This document shows, piece after piece, positions 18,890 through 50,307 of a stretch of 64,000 nucleotides of DNA. The notes beneath the pieces are model-generated. The model did not search any database. It was given only the letters and a program-made list of their open reading frames with translations, and had not been told where the DNA came from. The position numbers were made by a program, and so were the translations under genes. The stretch lies in NCBI RefSeq assembly GCF_947241125.1, contig NZ_OX365700.1:3940461-4004460 (forward strand), read 5' to 3'. Numbering within the stretch: the stretch's first letter is position 1; each line of letters begins with the position of its first letter. Source of the DNA: Nitrospira tepida (GTDB lineage: Bacteria > Nitrospirota > Nitrospiria > Nitrospirales > Nitrospiraceae).

Positions 18890-20629
18890 ATGAAATACTA
18901 TCGCCGGTTCCTGCCGTTCCTAAAGCCCTACCTCCCGAGAATGCTCGCGGCCGCGGGCTTAGTCGCCGTCGTCGCCCTGATCAACCTGGTGTTGATTCGG
19001 CTGGTGGGGCGCCTGTGGGACGTCGTCACCGTCCAGCGCAACGAGACCGAGATGAATCATCTTCTGGCGCTGTTTCTCCTGCTCGTCCTGGCACAGGGGA
19101 TCTTTTCGGTCGGACACGGGTATCTGGCGGCGTGGATTTCGCAACATCTGACCGCGGATTTTCGGCGCCATGTCTTCCGTCACCTGCAAAGCCTTTCACT
19201 GGGATTTTTCGCTAAACGTCGGACCGGCGAACTGCTATCCCGGCTGATGAACGACATCGGCGTCATCCAGAACATCGCGACCGACACGCCGATCGACCTG
19301 GCCAAGCAGGCCGTGACCTTGATCGGGGGTATCGCCTTTCTGCTCGTGACCAATTGGCAATTATGCGTGCTGATTCTCCTGCTGCTGCCCGCGCTGGTGC
19401 TGGTGGCCAAATTCTTCGGCCGCCGGCTCAAGCGGCTCTCGACGGCTATTCAAGATCGCACGGCCACGCTCTCGACGATCATCGAAGAAGTGTTATCCGG
19501 CATCCGCGTGGTCAAATCGTTCGTCCGGACATCCTGGGAGGAGGCTCGGTTCGCTGCCACCTTGAATGCCGCCGTCCGTGTCGCGCTCAAGCGGGCGGTC
19601 GTCATGGCCGTGTTCGTGCCGACGATCACGCTGCTCACCTTTGCAGCCGGCGCCGCCGTGCTCTGGTACGGAGGGCGGCAGGTCATCCAAGGGCAGGTCT
19701 CTCCCGGCGACCTCTTCGCGTTCGTCCTGTTTGCGGGCATTCTGATCGGGCCGTTCGGTGCAGCCGCGCGGGTCTTCGCCCAAATCAAAGAGGCGCAGGG
19801 CGCCATGCAGCGAGTCTTCGAGATCCTTGACACACAGCCGGAGGTTTCCGATGGCCCTGACGCGCAGGACCTCCCTCCCGTTCGGGGTCAGATGCGGCTT
19901 CAGCATGTCTCGTTTCAATACGACTCGCGCCAAGTCATTCTCCATGACGTGAGTTTGGAGGCCAATCCCGGCGAGGTGGTCGCCTTGGTTGGGCCGACGG
20001 GGGCGGGCAAGACGACCGTGATCAACCTGCTCCACCGGTTTTATGATCCCTCCGGCGGCGCCATCACCGTCGATGGCCATGACCTCCGGCACGTCCGACT
20101 CGACAGTTGGTATCGGCAGGTGGCGCTGGTCCCCCAGGAGACCGTGCTCTTCGGCGGCACGATCCTCGACAACATCCGATACGGACGTGAAGACGCGACC
20201 GAAGCGGACGTGCTGGCCGCCAGCGAAGCGGCGTTGGCGGACGAGTTCATCACGCGCTTGCCTGACGGATACCAGACCGTAGTCGGCGAGAAGGGTGTGA
20301 ACCTGTCGGGGGGACAGCGGCAGCGGATTGCGATTGCGCGGGCCATTCTCAAGAACCCGCGAGTCCTGCTGCTCGACGAGGCGACCTCCGCGCTCGACAC
20401 CGAATCCGAACGATTGGTTCAGCAGGCGCTCGATCGCCTGATGGCCGGACGGACCACCTTTGTCGTGGCCCATCGGCTCACCACCGTGCAGAAGGCCCAC
20501 AGGATCATCGTGCTGGACAAGGGCGCCGTCGTCGAGAGCGGCACCCATGCGGAACTGATCGAGCGGCGAGGGCTCTACCACTACCTCGCCACGCTCCGGC
20601 AGACCGAGGACGAACTTCGCTCTGCGTGA
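18890..20629 (+). CDS. msbA: MsbA-like ABC exporter (fused membrane and ATPase domains)
   Basis: Half-transporter of 579 residues that should dimerise to flip lipid A core or a related lipid across the inner membrane. Six membrane helices lie in residues 15-310. The ATPase domain is fully equipped: Walker A GPTGAGKTT, Q-loop VALVPQET, signature LSGGQRQR, Walker B VLLLDEATSALD and switch VVAHRL. Start ATG 18890 gives the family N terminus (MKYYRRFLPFLKPYLPRM); the open frame begins seven codons earlier. It is a useful contrast to the degenerate ABC protein at 47826-49505. Substrate is inferred from family resemblance only. Confidence 0.85.
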   Translation: MKYYRRFLPFLKPYLPRMLAAAGLVAVVALINLVLIRLVGRLWDVVTVQRNETEMNHLLALFLLLVLAQGIFSVGHGYLAAWISQHLTADFRRHVFRHLQSLSLGFFAKRRTGELLSRLMNDIGVIQNIATDTPIDLAKQAVTLIGGIAFLLVTNWQLCVLILLLLPALVLVAKFFGRRLKRLSTAIQDRTATLSTIIEEVLSGIRVVKSFVRTSWEEARFAATLNAAVRVALKRAVVMAVFVPTITLLTFAAGAAVLWYGGRQVIQGQVSPGDLFAFVLFAGILIGPFGAAARVFAQIKEAQGAMQRVFEILDTQPEVSDGPDAQDLPPVRGQMRLQHVSFQYDSRQVILHDVSLEANPGEVVALVGPTGAGKTTVINLLHRFYDPSGGAITVDGHDLRHVRLDSWYRQVALVPQETVLFGGTILDNIRYGREDATEADVLAASEAALADEFITRLPDGYQTVVGEKGVNLSGGQRQRIAIARAILKNPRVLLLDEATSALDTESERLVQQALDRLMAGRTTFVVAHRLTTVQKAHRIIVLDKGAVVESGTHAELIERRGLYHYLATLRQTEDELRSA

Positions 20630-44385: not shown

Positions 44386-44635
44386 AGTCTCTATCCCTTT
44401 CGTTCGACTCACTTTTCCAAGCCCCGCTTCCCACCGAGCTTCCCGCCGAAAGGGATCGCCCGGGACCGCGGTCTCCGCGGATCACCCGGGGGCGCGCACA
44501 CCTTAGCCTGAGGCCCGGGGCCCGTCAAGAACCACCAGACCAACTGGTTGCTTCCTCGTGGGAAATTGACCCTTCCCCTCTGCTTGGCATATGATCAGCA
44601 GCGAGTGGAGGCCGAAACGCCCCGCTCGCTCCCCC

Positions 44636-46078
44636 ATGGCGACGGAACCGGGAAAAGTCGGGCTCCGAGGGCAGATCCGATCCTTCGTGGATCAACCGAC
44701 CGGTTTGGACGAACTGGTCGTGGATGATCTGGCCGTCTCGAGCAAGCTCCAATCCTGGGAAGCGGTTCAGATACCCGATCGGCTGCGGTTTTCATCCCGC
44801 CTTGCCATCAAACTGCTGCTCGCGTTCCTGATCATCATCGCCTTCGTTCCCTGGACCCAGACAATCACCGTCACCGGCCAACTGTCGGCCTATTCCCCCT
44901 ACGAACGGCCGCAGTGGATCGAATCTCAGATCACAGGCCGCATCAAGAAATGGCACATCTACGAAGGCGTCCGCGTTAAACAGGGGGACTTGATCGTCGA
45001 GCTCGACGACTATGATCCCAACTTCATGGCGCCCGACCTGCTGGCCAGGCTGGAAGAACGCAAGAAGGCTCTCGACCAAACTCGCAAGGCCGCACTGGAA
45101 CGCGCGGACCAGTTGGATAAGCGCATCAAGGAAATGCAGAACCTCGTGAAGGCGGCCGTCCCTTCCGCGGCCGCGCGCGTGGTCGAGGCGGAGAACAAAG
45201 TCCGCGAGGCGACCCAGAAGGTCGAGGCGGCCAAGATCGCCGTGGCCACGGCCGAACTGAACGTCGACCGCCACAAACAGTTGGCCGAGCAAGGGCTGGT
45301 CTCTCAGCGCGAGCTCGAACTCACCATTCAGGCGGCCATCGCGACGAAGGCCGATCTGCAGGGGGCCCAAGCCGGACTCAAGGCGGCACAACAGGCCATG
45401 ATGGCCTTGAGCTACGGCAAGGAACAGGTCAGCGCGGAAGTGCTCCAGCGGCTCATGGAGGCCGAAGCGTCGAGGGATGGGTCCTTTGCCGAGGCGGCCA
45501 AGGCGGCCAATGAGTTGGCGGACATCGAGCTGCGCCTCTCGAACGCCACCCAGCGGCGCCTGGCCGGACATATTTACGCCCCGGTGGACGGCACGGTCGT
45601 CAGAATGGCCCAGGTGGGGCCCGGAGAAACCGTGAAGCAGGGCGACAAGCTGGTCAGGATTTCTCCGACCAGCATGGACAAGGCGATCGAAATGGTCGCG
45701 GACGGGATCGATGCGCCGCTCCTGAACGTCGGCCGAAAGGTCCGTCTGCTGTTCTACGGGATTCCCGCGATTCCGCTGCCGGCCTGGCCGGAAGTGATGG
45801 CCGGCACCTACGGGGGCGTCATCAAGGTGATCGATCAAGTGGACGACGGGAAAGGAAACTTCCGGTTCTGGGTCGTGCCGGATCCCGAGGACCGTCCCTG
45901 GCCCGATCAGGCGCACGTGCGGCAGGGAACCAAGACGATGGGATGGGTCATCCTGAACCGCGTTCCGCTCTGGTATGAGTTGTGGCGGCGATTCAACCTG
46001 TTCCCGCCGGACTTCCAGGAACGGCCGCCCACACTGATCGACACGCTCCTTCCGAAAGCAGGCACCAGCGCCAAGTGA
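44636..46078 (+). CDS. HlyD-type membrane fusion protein
   Basis: Periplasmic adaptor of a type I secretion-like exporter, 480 residues. One inner-membrane helix (LAIKLLLAFLIIIAFVPW, near residue 60) is followed by a lipoyl half-motif (VRVKQGDLIVELDDYDP), a long alpha-hairpin (about 135-320) and the second lipoyl/beta-barrel region (IYAPVDGTVVRMAQVGPGETVKQGDKLVRI). The extended N-terminal cytoplasmic part resembles adaptors of bacteriocin-type exporters. First of four genes reading the same way: adaptor, TolC, ABC protein, 4-helix-bundle protein. Confidence 0.88.
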   Translation: MATEPGKVGLRGQIRSFVDQPTGLDELVVDDLAVSSKLQSWEAVQIPDRLRFSSRLAIKLLLAFLIIIAFVPWTQTITVTGQLSAYSPYERPQWIESQITGRIKKWHIYEGVRVKQGDLIVELDDYDPNFMAPDLLARLEERKKALDQTRKAALERADQLDKRIKEMQNLVKAAVPSAAARVVEAENKVREATQKVEAAKIAVATAELNVDRHKQLAEQGLVSQRELELTIQAAIATKADLQGAQAGLKAAQQAMMALSYGKEQVSAEVLQRLMEAEASRDGSFAEAAKAANELADIELRLSNATQRRLAGHIYAPVDGTVVRMAQVGPGETVKQGDKLVRISPTSMDKAIEMVADGIDAPLLNVGRKVRLLFYGIPAIPLPAWPEVMAGTYGGVIKVIDQVDDGKGNFRFWVVPDPEDRPWPDQAHVRQGTKTMGWVILNRVPLWYELWRRFNLFPPDFQERPPTLIDTLLPKAGTSAK

Positions 46079-46193: not shown

Positions 46194-47675
46194 ATGAGAT
46201 CATACGTTCGACTCTTGGGTACAGCCACGCTGCTGTGCGCCGTTGCGCTGACGGGTGCCGCCGCCTTTGCGGAAGAGCCGAAATCGAAACCGCTGCCGCC
46301 GATTCCGCTGTCGCAGGAGGAGGTCTTCGCCTGGGTGGACCGCTCTCACCCCCTGCTGAAGAGCGCCGGCACGGAGAAGGTCGTGGCGAGGGGCCGCCTG
46401 TTGCGGGCCTTGGGCGCCTTTGAGCCCCAACTGGTGAACGACACCGAGATCGAGCGCTTTATCTCCAGTTCCAGGCCGCAGCTCGGCACTCAGACCGCCG
46501 GCTTCAACGACACCTTCATGGACTTCCGGCATCCCTCCGGCATCAAGGGTATCGCCGGATATCGTTACTCCATCGGAGACGCCGTGATCCCGGATCTCAA
46601 GGTCGGCAAGGACAACCAGATCCTGCTCGGCGCCTCGATTCCTCTGCTCCGCGGGCTCTTGGTCAATCCCGAATCGGCGGAACTCCAGCGGTCAGAACTG
46701 GCCGATCCTCGGGCCGAGGTCAAGATCGCCGAAACCCGCCAAGGACTGTTCCTCGCGGCGGCCACCCAGTTGTGGGACTTGGTCGCCGCCGCCAAACTCG
46801 CCGATGTGGCCCAGCGGGCGCAGAAGGTCGCCGAGGATCGGATGAAGCAGATCGAGCAACGGGCCAAGGCCGGGGCCGTGGCACCCTTGGATGCGGTCGA
46901 AGCGAACCAGGAAGTCCAGCGGCGCCGCGAGTCGGCGATCGCCGCCCAACGGCTGGTCGAGCAGGAACAGTTCAAGATGTCCTTGTTCCTGTGGGAGAAG
47001 AGCGAACCGGTGACTCCGGCCATCGACCGGGTTCCGGAGTTCCCCGCCAACCAGACGACGCCAAGCCCGGAGACGGTGAAGGCCAACAAGATACAAGCCA
47101 AGGCCGATCGCCCGGAAGTGCGCGAGATCGGCATTGAGGCCAAGCTCAACGACATCGATCTTGAGCTGGCCAAAAACAACCTTCTCCCCAGCCTGGACGC
47201 CGACGCCTCGCCCGCGCGCAGTCCGGAAAAATTCGTCCTCGGCCTCGGATACAAGTTCGGGCTGGAACTCCGGGTCCCCATCATGCAGCGGCGGGGCCGC
47301 GGCGAGGTCCTGGAAGCGCAGGGCAAGGCCGACCGGCTGGTGCTGCTCCAAAAGTACCGGGAGCAACAGGTCGTCGTCGATGTGGATAACGCCCTGTCGG
47401 CCATCGAACGGGCCAAGGAACGGATCGCAGCCGCCGCCGATTCGCTCCGTCTGGCGAAAACGCTGGAAGAGGGCGAGCGGTTTCGGTTTAGTCTCGGCGC
47501 GACCAGCGTCCTCTTCGTCAACCTCCGGGAACGGAACAGCGTCGATTCGGAGATCCAATTGATCAGGGCCAAGGCCGACTATCAAAAAGCCCTGGCCCTG
47601 TATCAATGGGCCATCGGCGCCTGGGCCAAAAGCGGACCCAGTGCGGTCCCGGTGAGCTATCGACAAGTTCGGTAG
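46194..47675 (+). CDS. TolC-family outer-membrane channel
   Basis: A 493-residue exported protein (signal ending TGAAAFA near residue 26). The long helical repeats with paired features such as PLLRGLLVNPESAELQRSEL and DLELAKNNLLPSLDAD are those of the OEP/TolC family, which forms trimeric outer-membrane tunnels. AAAGGAG lies before the ATG. It lies 115 bp after the adaptor gene, and together they should span the envelope. Confidence 0.87.
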   Translation: MRSYVRLLGTATLLCAVALTGAAAFAEEPKSKPLPPIPLSQEEVFAWVDRSHPLLKSAGTEKVVARGRLLRALGAFEPQLVNDTEIERFISSSRPQLGTQTAGFNDTFMDFRHPSGIKGIAGYRYSIGDAVIPDLKVGKDNQILLGASIPLLRGLLVNPESAELQRSELADPRAEVKIAETRQGLFLAAATQLWDLVAAAKLADVAQRAQKVAEDRMKQIEQRAKAGAVAPLDAVEANQEVQRRRESAIAAQRLVEQEQFKMSLFLWEKSEPVTPAIDRVPEFPANQTTPSPETVKANKIQAKADRPEVREIGIEAKLNDIDLELAKNNLLPSLDADASPARSPEKFVLGLGYKFGLELRVPIMQRRGRGEVLEAQGKADRLVLLQKYREQQVVVDVDNALSAIERAKERIAAAADSLRLAKTLEEGERFRFSLGATSVLFVNLRERNSVDSEIQLIRAKADYQKALALYQWAIGAWAKSGPSAVPVSYRQVR

Positions 47676-47825: not shown

Positions 47826-49505
47826 ATGAACTCGGCACAGGACCATAACCAGCAGCCTCACCCGTCCCTTGCGATCCGCGACATCATGTCCCGCTTCGGG
47901 GTGTTGCTCCGGGCGGAACGCCGGGTGCTCGGACTCATTTTTTCCTACGCGCTCGCGATCGGGTTGTTCTCCTTGATCGTCCCGTTGACCGTGCAAGAGC
48001 TGGTCAACACCTTCGCCTTTGCCATCCAACCGATCACGATCGTCACGCTTTCCATCATCATCCTCGCCAGCCTCCTGTTCGTCGGGGCGTTCAAGGCCTT
48101 CCAGGTTTATGCGGAAGAGATTCTCCAGCGGCGCCTGTTCGCGCGGGTCGCGCTGGGGATGACCCAACATTTCCCTGACGTGCGGATCGCGGGATTCAAG
48201 CCCCGATACGCCAACTACTTCACGGAAGCCGTGTTCATGCAGCGCGCCCTCTCGGGATTGTTGATCGACTTCATCGACGTCGTGATCGGCGGGATCGTCG
48301 GGATGACGCTCCTGGTCTTCTATCATCCCTACTTCCTCGGCTTTAACATCGTGCTGTTCGGCGGCGGCGCCCTGGTCTTCGTGCTCTTGAGTCAAGGCGG
48401 GCTGAAGGCGACGCTGGAGGTCTCGCATTGGAAATACAGCACGATGCATTGGCTCCAAGAGATCGCCTACAACCTGCTGCATTTCAAGGCGACGACCTCC
48501 AAACCCTATCTCTTGCGCCGGACGGACGAGCTGGTCGATCGCTATACGGAAGCCAGACGAACCCGGTTTGCGGTGTTGATGCGGCAATATCTCGGCTCGG
48601 TCGTCTGGCAGGCCCTGGGACACGGAGGCATCATTGCCACGGCGGGGTGGCTGCTCTCCATCGGGCAACTGACGCTCGGTCAATTGGTGGCGGCGCAGGT
48701 GATCGTCGGCCGCCTATTGTTCAGCTTTGAGTCGCTCGTCAAGAAGATGGGGCATGTCTTTTATTTCTTCACCGCGCTGACGGAACTGGATTTTGTGTTT
48801 TCGCTCCCCAAGGACGAACATCGGGCCGTCCTGTCGGTTCCCCTCCCGGACCCGGCCATTCACGGCATCCGTTTGACCTGCCGGGATGTGGGCGTGGCTG
48901 GACCGGAGGGCGACGCCTTTTTTGAACATTTCGATCTGGAAATCACGCCGGGTGAAAAAGTCGGCATCCTCACGGCATCCAATCAGGCGAAGACGACTTT
49001 GGCGCGCGTGCTGGCCGGCCTGGAGTCCCCCGCCTCGGGGGTCATCCGATACAACGGCGTGGATCTCCGCCACCTCGACATGGACAGCATCAACACCTGC
49101 CGCGGCTTCGTGCTGGATTCCAAGCTCACCCTATTCGAGGGCACCGTGGAGGACAATATTTCAATGGGCCGCCCGTCGATCGCCTACAGCGACCTGCGCT
49201 GGGCCCTGCGCTTTACCGAACTGGAGGAAGAGATCGACGCCCTGCCACAGGGCATCAAAACCCATGTGCGGGCCGAAGGAGCCGTTTTTTCGCCAGCGCG
49301 CATCCAGAAGATGTTGGTGGCCCGCGCAATCGTCACCCGCCCGCAGATCCTGATCTTCGACGGCCTGCTGCACAATATGCACCCGGTCCAGCGCGAAACG
49401 CTCCTGCGCCGCCTCTGCTCCAAAGAAGAACCCTGGTCGGTCGTGTTCATCTCGAACGATCCGACCCTGACGCCCTATATCGACCGCCGCGTCGAAATCG
49501 GGTAG
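47826..49505 (+). CDS. ABC half-transporter with degenerate ATPase domain
   Basis: A 559-residue protein with six membrane helices (about 35-330) and a C-terminal ABC domain (about 345-559). Every catalytic motif is altered. Walker A reads TASNQAKTT (383-391), with the last two glycines of GxxGxGK replaced. The Q-loop Gln is D431, and the signature LSGGQ is FSPAR (488-492). The Walker B Glu is Gly (IFDG, 510-513) and the switch His is N544. The fold is otherwise full length without frameshift, so this looks like a maintained protein, not a pseudogene. It may bind but hardly hydrolyse ATP. The partner energising it is not seen. Confidence 0.85.
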   Translation: MNSAQDHNQQPHPSLAIRDIMSRFGVLLRAERRVLGLIFSYALAIGLFSLIVPLTVQELVNTFAFAIQPITIVTLSIIILASLLFVGAFKAFQVYAEEILQRRLFARVALGMTQHFPDVRIAGFKPRYANYFTEAVFMQRALSGLLIDFIDVVIGGIVGMTLLVFYHPYFLGFNIVLFGGGALVFVLLSQGGLKATLEVSHWKYSTMHWLQEIAYNLLHFKATTSKPYLLRRTDELVDRYTEARRTRFAVLMRQYLGSVVWQALGHGGIIATAGWLLSIGQLTLGQLVAAQVIVGRLLFSFESLVKKMGHVFYFFTALTELDFVFSLPKDEHRAVLSVPLPDPAIHGIRLTCRDVGVAGPEGDAFFEHFDLEITPGEKVGILTASNQAKTTLARVLAGLESPASGVIRYNGVDLRHLDMDSINTCRGFVLDSKLTLFEGTVEDNISMGRPSIAYSDLRWALRFTELEEEIDALPQGIKTHVRAEGAVFSPARIQKMLVARAIVTRPQILIFDGLLHNMHPVQRETLLRRLCSKEEPWSVVFISNDPTLTPYIDRRVEIG

Positions 49506-49518
49506 CCTACGAGCCCTC

Positions 49519-50307
49519 GTGAAACTGTTCAAAGGCCTCAGCCTTCGCGAAATTGGATTCCCGCAGATCACCCTCAGTCTGCTGATCATCGGCTTGGGCT
49601 GGTTGGGCGGCCAGGAGTTGAGCCAGGTCGATCAGGACCTGCGCGTGATGTACACCGAGTACACGCTCGGCGCCACCGATCTGGCCCATATCATGGCGGA
49701 CGTGATGCGGTACCGGACCACGATCGTTCGGGCGCTGGAAGCCGACAGCAAGAAAGAGTTCGATCGGATTACCGCCGGCCTTCCTGAGCTTCGGGCGCAG
49801 ATTCAACATGCGATCGACCGGTATGCCGCCGCCAGCCTTCGTGTCTCCCGAAGCGGGCGCAGCGAACCGGAAGACCTGGAGGCGCTCCGGCTCAGTCTGG
49901 ACGACTATTTCCACAGCGCCGGCAAAACCACGGATCTCTTGCTCCTGGAATGGACCGCCCCCACTCCGGCACAGGCGACGAAGTTACGCCGGGAGGCCGA
50001 AGTGCATGCGGCGGAAAACGCCGGTCCGAAGGTCGTGCAGGTCAGCATCGCCTTGGACCGTCTGTTGGAAACGGTGGCGGATGTAGCCAAAGACATGAGG
50101 GATCAGGGCACGAGGACCATCCGCATCACCAGCTCGCTGCTGTTCTTCGGCAGCACGTTTCTGGCGTTTCTGAATCTCCTGGTCGCCATGCGAAGCGCCG
50201 CGGCTCGAAAGCGGCAGGCCGCTTCGTCATCGAGTCATTCGAGCAGGAACGCCGAGGCCGGATTGGCGTTCCCTCGCGCGGATACCAAACTCGCCGGATC
50301 CGAGTAG
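49519..50307 (+). CDS. Membrane protein with 4-helix-bundle sensor-type domain
   Basis: A 262-residue protein starting at GTG. Two membrane helices (about 14-32 and 198-218) flank a helical periplasmic region resembling the 4HB_MCP sensor domain (VMRYRTTIVRALEADSKKEFDRI). Unlike chemoreceptors or kinases, it ends after the second helix with a 40-residue Ser/Arg-rich tail and no signalling domain. It lies 13 bp after the degenerate ABC gene, so it is probably part of that system. Confidence 0.72.
   Translation: MKLFKGLSLREIGFPQITLSLLIIGLGWLGGQELSQVDQDLRVMYTEYTLGATDLAHIMADVMRYRTTIVRALEADSKKEFDRITAGLPELRAQIQHAIDRYAAASLRVSRSGRSEPEDLEALRLSLDDYFHSAGKTTDLLLLEWTAPTPAQATKLRREAEVHAAENAGPKVVQVSIALDRLLETVADVAKDMRDQGTRTIRITSSLLFFGSTFLAFLNLLVAMRSAAARKRQAASSSSHSSRNAEAGLAFPRADTKLAGSE

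Follow-up and report, generated by a model that had tools for sequence, protein, structure and literature searches.

In the current view, ATP powers both type I secretion systems (T1SS) and tripartite pumps of the ABC type, and in the known heterodimeric ABC exporters the catalytically active half is usually co-encoded. Loci encoding HlyD-type proteins together with a second SecA, and without an ABC protein, were described by Kamneva et al. in 2015, one of them in a member of the Nitrospirae (PMC4452313). A 2022 genome paper treated HlyBD2-OMP2 of Blastomonas fulva like any other ABC efflux pump and did not consider the motifs of its nucleotide-binding domain (NBD) (PMC9505733); this pump may be a sphingomonad relative of the family reported here. 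Searches of open-licence PMC papers turned up no account of a catalytically dead ABC protein paired with HlyD and TolC.

Nitrospira species are key nitrite oxidizers. The window analyzed here comprises 64,000 nucleotides of the Nitrospira tepida genome (contig NZ_OX365700.1, positions 3,940,461 to 4,004,460 of the forward strand) and contains a co-directional set of four genes, encoding a HlyD-type adaptor, a TolC-type protein, an exporter-like protein that we refer to as pseudo-ABC, and a 4HB_MCP-like membrane protein (Table 1). An earlier sequence-only reading had described the pseudo-ABC gene as full length and placed it between adaptor, TolC and sensor-like genes. The frame is indeed intact, and Pfam assigns the neighbors to the HlyD, TolC/OEP and 4HB_MCP types. 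The 4HB_MCP-like gene begins 14 bases past the pseudo-ABC stop codon; its product has two transmembrane segments, predicted from the sequence, with a periplasmic four-helix bundle expected between them, and no output domain was found in it. Since the candidate promoter overlaps the first ATG of the adaptor frame, at 44591, translation of HlyD probably starts at 44636. Note that a promoter-like site is by itself not evidence on function. No cargo-like gene is recognizable inside the operon, and none of its four proteins matched a PADLOC model for anti-phage defense.

Table 1 Features of the pseudo-ABC operon of N. tepida, with positions counted within the window.
Feature	Position	Strand	Remarks
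Candidate sigma-70-like promoter, TTGACC-18-TATGAT	44566..44595	+	Ahead of the operon; consensus scan, 10/12 matches
HlyD-family periplasmic adaptor	44636..46078	+	480 aa when counted from the likely start; the longest ORF starts at 44591
RLS motif RHKQLAEQGLVS, residues 212-223, predicted hairpin tip	45269..45304	+	TolC-docking motif of adaptors
TolC-family outer membrane protein	46194..47675	+	493 aa; Pfam OEP 3.7e-35, two stretches
Pseudo-ABC exporter, type I (HlyB-like) fold	47826..49505	+	559 aa
Transmembrane domain (TMD), ~residues 20-335	47883..48830	+	Alignment, conservation, TMD-only homologues in L075 and L076
Degenerate NBD, ~residues 345-556	48858..49493	+	Pfam ABC_tran, 49 bits
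Degenerate Walker A TASNQAKT, residues 383-390	48972..48995	+	Alignment
Q-loop position, D431 replaces Gln	49116..49118	+	Asp in 125/133 relatives, Gln in 0/133
Degenerate signature FSPAR, residues 488-492, replaces LSGGQ	49287..49301	+	Alignment
Walker B LIFDG, residues 509-513	49350..49364	+	Asp512 kept; Gly513 replaces catalytic Glu
H-loop position, N544 replaces His	49455..49457	+	Asn in 106/133, His in 0/133
4HB_MCP/TarH-like membrane protein	49519..50307	+	262 aa; Pfam 4HB_MCP_1 1.8e-8, TarH 2e-7

The motif residues of pseudo-ABC were assigned by aligning the protein to intact exporters encoded in the N. tepida genome. One intact control lies in the window itself, the NBD of an ABC exporter within a 612-aa frame (19940-20389, corresponding to G000:C1:3960400-3960849). 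The Walker A consensus G-x-x-G-x-G-K-S/T reads T383-x-x-N386-x-A388-K389-T390, i.e., all three glycines are replaced while lysine and threonine are kept, and together with D512 of Walker B these two are the only ATPase-motif residues that remain. The sequence-only reading had stated that the protein lacks all ATPase motifs. In substance this is correct, as every catalytic residue is replaced, but the persistence of K389, T390 and D512 makes the wording slightly too strong. Pfam scores the domain above its cut-off, though lower (Table 1) than most NBDs of N. tepida, which reach 70-135 bits.

The same losses recur throughout the family. Among 133 distinct Nitrospirales relatives, the Walker B glutamate, the Q-loop glutamine and the H-loop histidine are each absent without exception, and the glutamate position is occupied by glycine in 128 and by serine in two of them. 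This recurrence leaves no room for chance or sequencing error as the cause. Homologues that share both the substitutions and the neighboring genes had been called for, and were found; none has intact motifs. The replacing residues are themselves conserved (D431 95%, S432 96%, G513 98%, H516 99%, and S543-x-D545-P546 94-98%, with 94% for S543 and 98% for D545). The Walker A lysine is kept in 109 and the Walker B aspartate in 99 of the 133 proteins. In the TMD, the most conserved stretch is PLTVQELVNTF (residues 53-63). Ratios of dN/dS were derived from 25 close pairs with 94-97% identity. For pseudo-ABC, the median is 0.061 both over the full length and within the TMD, and 0.046 within the NBD; the operon partners have comparable values (HlyD 0.041, TolC 0.063). 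A neutrally evolving NBD should exceed the TMD in dN/dS; as the observed value is no higher, the dead NBD is under selection. Judged by these ratios, purifying selection on pseudo-ABC is strong.

An AlphaFold2 model of pseudo-ABC, built from a 43-row alignment (pLDDT 82, pTM 0.70), shows a complete type I exporter fold. In Foldseek, the model matches HlyB from the HlyB/D complex best (8dck_A, TM-score 0.88 on the query, E 9.7e-25), and the same chain is the nearest solved structure (Z 28.4; 532 residues aligned at rmsd 2.6). A predicted fold shared with HlyB does not by itself establish function. The adaptor matches Pfam HlyD_3 and Biotin_lipoyl_2, falls below the cut-off of NCBIfam type_I_hlyD, and has orthologues mostly of 475-480 aa. 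Its model is of low confidence (pLDDT 64, pTM 0.39) and confident only in the hairpin, and Foldseek matches of this model were left aside. It has one transmembrane helix (48-70) and a helical hairpin (135-218/224-314) with helices of about 85 residues. The motif RxxxLxxxxxxS serves TolC binding in MacA and AcrA, and HlyD has an RLT version (PMC3391258). The RLS pattern is present in 28 of 28 aligned and in 100 of 100 fetched long Nitrospirales orthologues, with R212, L216 and S223 invariant. Because the bare pattern also occurs in 12% of shuffled sequences, the evidence lies in its invariance and position and not in its mere presence. Some sphingomonad adaptors lack the strict pattern, having alanine at the serine position, and the Riemerella adaptor shows no clear match.

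The family is present in 61 of 246 Nitrospirota genomes, all of them from two families of one order. Most Nitrospiraceae (order Nitrospirales), N. defluvii and N. moscoviensis among them, have orthologues in the same operon. When the 61 genomes were searched with each protein, an identical set of 38 had pseudo-ABC, HlyD and TolC, and the other 23 had none of the three. Within one genus, G036 is devoid of all three genes and G009 and G027 keep them. Co-occurrence of the three proteins is thus obligate across the genomes searched. HlyD is a single-copy gene, and pseudo-ABC is present in one to four copies, all of them dead. Tandem pairs are found at L042, L044, L050, L057 and L059; in a further pair, at L061 (G011:C4:249612-251265), the TMD and the NBD of the first copy lie in separate frames, owing to a frameshift or an assembly error, and the second copy is intact. 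In G024 (L070) and G034 (L069), the set is rearranged but remains together, three tandem TolC-like genes preceding pseudo-ABC and HlyD. The 4HB_MCP-type gene adjoins pseudo-ABC in most Nitrospiraceae loci and is found beside it neither in the second family of the Nitrospirales nor in other phyla. It is an accessory of the Nitrospiraceae version of the operon.

There are also solo copies of pseudo-ABC without an adjoining HlyD or TolC gene. N. tepida itself has a second pseudo-ABC of this kind, 46% identical to the first (L040:7208-8908; G000:C1:4593219-4594874), with an IstB gene of the IS21 type situated a few kb upstream. At L045, L056, L058 and L077, a solo pseudo-ABC gene is directly followed by genes for an NtrB-like kinase of the PAS-HisKA type and a sigma54 response regulator, the domains of which were confirmed in the first three. 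This arrangement suggests a regulatory link. To judge from the solo copies, pseudo-ABC may have another role in addition to that in the operon.

Relatives outside the Nitrospirota were sampled from a plasmid collection only. There, tblastn retrieved full-length relatives from the Bacteroidota Persicobacter (31% identity, 1e-69), Aureibacter and Riemerella, and from the sphingomonads Novosphingobium, Sphingobium, Croceicoccus and Sphingomonas; the cultured strain Novosphingobium aromaticivorans DSM 12444 is among the carriers. The gene order ABC-HlyD-TolC is annotated at ten loci of these relatives, and the unannotated Persicobacter locus L190 has the same arrangement of open reading frames, its second gene matching HlyD. 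The Persicobacter pseudo-ABC (L190:6512-8686) is extended at its N-terminus by about 150 residues that match no Pfam family. By their motifs, all of the Bacteroidota and sphingomonad relatives are catalytically dead. The sphingomonad members have also lost the Walker B aspartate and, in most cases, the Walker A lysine. In an IQ-TREE phylogeny, 29 pseudo-ABC proteins separate from 12 intact exporters (T1SS, PCAT, MsbA-like and CydD) with 100% support, regardless of whether the full alignment or the TMD alone is used, and FastTree agrees with this split. Since it holds for the TMD alone, the grouping is not owed to the degenerate NBD. For the relatives covered, with the plasmid collection representing the other phyla, the simplest reading would be a single loss of hydrolysis before the family spread. 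Annotated members carry the ordinary label 'ABC transporter ATP-binding protein', and the family has for this reason probably been overlooked in Nitrospira, Bacteroidota and sphingomonads.

One branch has gone a step further. In G056 (L076) and G058 (L075), the ABC gene stops just past the TMD, after 346 and 337 aa, respectively, and both genomes still carry HlyD and TolC. The two TMD-only proteins are 79% identical, with a dN/dS of 0.27. Members of the same genus, G052 and G059, have a full-length NBD that is more degenerate and devoid of the Walker A lysine. As far as the gene sequences tell, the NBD is expendable in this branch. A Proton_antipo_M protein is encoded near both TMD-only genes (L075:4444-5457 and L076:8704-9744), and a DabA-like inorganic carbon transporter subunit near that of L075.

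We conclude that pseudo-ABC probably provides a non-hydrolyzing, HlyB-like base for its dedicated HlyD and TolC partners in an envelope-spanning tripartite complex. The best reading of the family as a whole is that of an old, multi-phylum group of tripartite HlyD-TolC complexes on a non-hydrolyzing ABC base. Sequence-based support comes from the family-wide catalytic losses, selection on the NBD, co-occurrence, the docking motif, the NBD-less relatives and the spread over three phyla, to which the predicted HlyB-like fold is added. The losses in the homologues and the dN/dS values support well the earlier proposal of a selected, non-hydrolyzing ABC scaffold paired with HlyD and TolC; the further proposal, that this would be a new kind of complex for secretion or envelope tethering, is plausible. 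In such a complex, pseudo-ABC, HlyD and TolC would assemble as HlyB-HlyD-TolC do, with pseudo-ABC as the fixed inner-membrane partner and without an ATP power stroke of the complex's own. The NBD, where kept, would be a docking or regulatory module and might still bind nucleotide in the many copies that have the Walker A lysine. The complex could act as a gated conduit or as a strut between inner and outer membrane, and the choice between the two is a guess. Any transport would have to be driven otherwise, by the proton motive force or by delivery of the substrate from the periplasm, and in the Nitrospiraceae the 4HB sensor-like protein might tune the complex. It is possible, with the balance tipping slightly to the other side, that the pseudo-ABC scaffold has replaced the motor altogether (in one branch as a mere TMD), such that the HlyD-TolC conduit or strut operates with no ABC ATPase at all. 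If this holds, the ABC fold can be nothing more than a platform on which an envelope-spanning channel is assembled, which raises the question of such a channel's task and driving force.

In principle, pseudo-ABC could instead be one half of a heteromeric exporter, the active ABC half of which is encoded elsewhere. Asymmetric ABC exporters such as TmrAB are known (PMC8277102), BmrCD being a similar case, and ABC exporters of the MsbA or T1SS type that look intact are present in each of the genomes. The occurrence of several pseudo-ABC copies per HlyD also suggests heteromers. We nevertheless consider a catalytic partner in trans unlikely. It departs from the usual co-encoding of the active half, and an intact tandem partner is ruled out, both copies of the pairs being dead. 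A dedicated intact T1SS ABC protein is likewise discounted as the partner, as its presence does not track the operon: close orthologues of the intact T1SS ABC protein of N. tepida are missing from many operon-bearing genomes (e.g., G001, G006, G009, G015) and present in the operon-less G033, G036, G037 and G053. Moreover, the usual pairing of NBDs between two ABC halves would not be open to the TMD-only relatives. As a separate observation, a T1SS-type ABC paralogue of L003 in N. tepida (L004, G000:C1:43994-46167) consists of two overlapping frames of 429 and 393 aa and is apparently frameshifted.

Quite unlikely, too, is a conduit gated by ATP binding, in which the degenerate NBD would bind ATP and open or close the complex without hydrolysis. 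The frequent retention of the Walker A lysine and the Walker B aspartate in the Nitrospirales is in line with this idea, and according to a study on Lpt, transport in an ABC protein can be triggered by ATP binding alone (PMC6703430). However, the Walker A glycines are replaced in the N. tepida protein, the lysine is gone as well in the f3-family and in most sphingomonad members, and two relatives have no NBD that could bind the nucleotide.

A third explanation, a sensory or regulatory device, appears improbable. Here, pseudo-ABC would be a membrane receptor passing the status of the envelope on to the 4HB_MCP-like protein and to NtrB/NtrC-type systems, with HlyD-TolC being the route of the ligand or the apparatus sensed. 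The 4HB_MCP-type gene 3' of pseudo-ABC in most Nitrospiraceae loci and the kinase and regulator genes that directly follow the solo copies at L045, L056 and L058 speak for it, and SUR exemplifies an ABC protein that acts as a regulator (PMC4699857). On the other hand, the 4HB protein has no output domain, the second family and the other phyla keep ABC, HlyD and TolC together without an adjoining 4HB gene, the intact TolC-docking motif of HlyD implies a physical conduit, and the adjacent kinase appears from its sequence to have transmembrane segments of its own. Finally, decay of an ordinary T1SS ABC transporter gene into a pseudogene, which the loss of every catalytic residue might suggest, is ruled out for practical purposes by a dN/dS of about 0.05, far from the value of 1 named beforehand as the mark of decay, by full-length frames and by losses common to all relatives examined in three phyla.

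How does the non-hydrolyzing base for HlyD and TolC compare with described systems? Like the heterodimeric exporters TmrAB, BmrCD and TM287/288, pseudo-ABC combines a type I exporter fold with substituted catalytic motifs. Those exporters keep one catalytic site, whereas here the tandem copies and all paralogues are dead, so that a co-encoded intact partner half is lacking. The SecA_DEAD/T1SS-related loci (PMC4452313) resemble the operon in their HlyD-type proteins, in the presence of OEP in some of them and in an unusual energizing component; they differ in having a second SecA, while an ABC-fold protein is encoded in the N. tepida locus. A secondary SecA as motor is ruled out for N. tepida by the single SecA_DEAD match in its genome. 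Closest is the T1SS HlyB-HlyD-TolC, with which the locus shares an inner-membrane protein of the ABC exporter fold, a HlyD adaptor with an RLS-type docking motif and a channel of the TolC family. Unlike HlyB-HlyD-TolC, it lacks the ATPase residues, its ABC protein of 559 aa is without a C39 or C39-like domain at the N-terminus, the operon contains no recognizable cargo gene, and one branch has no NBD. The NCBIfam models for T1SS ABC proteins, PCAT and adaptors all score far under their cut-offs (for the ABC protein at best TIGR03375 with 127.6 bits against 693, for the adaptor TIGR01843 with 72.9 against 208.65), and a catalytically competent NBD is not to be expected where glutamate, glutamine and histidine are absent from 133 of 133 relatives. 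To judge from these comparisons, the family has the tripartite ABC/HlyD/TolC architecture in common with the T1SS but not the energized motor by which the T1SS is defined.
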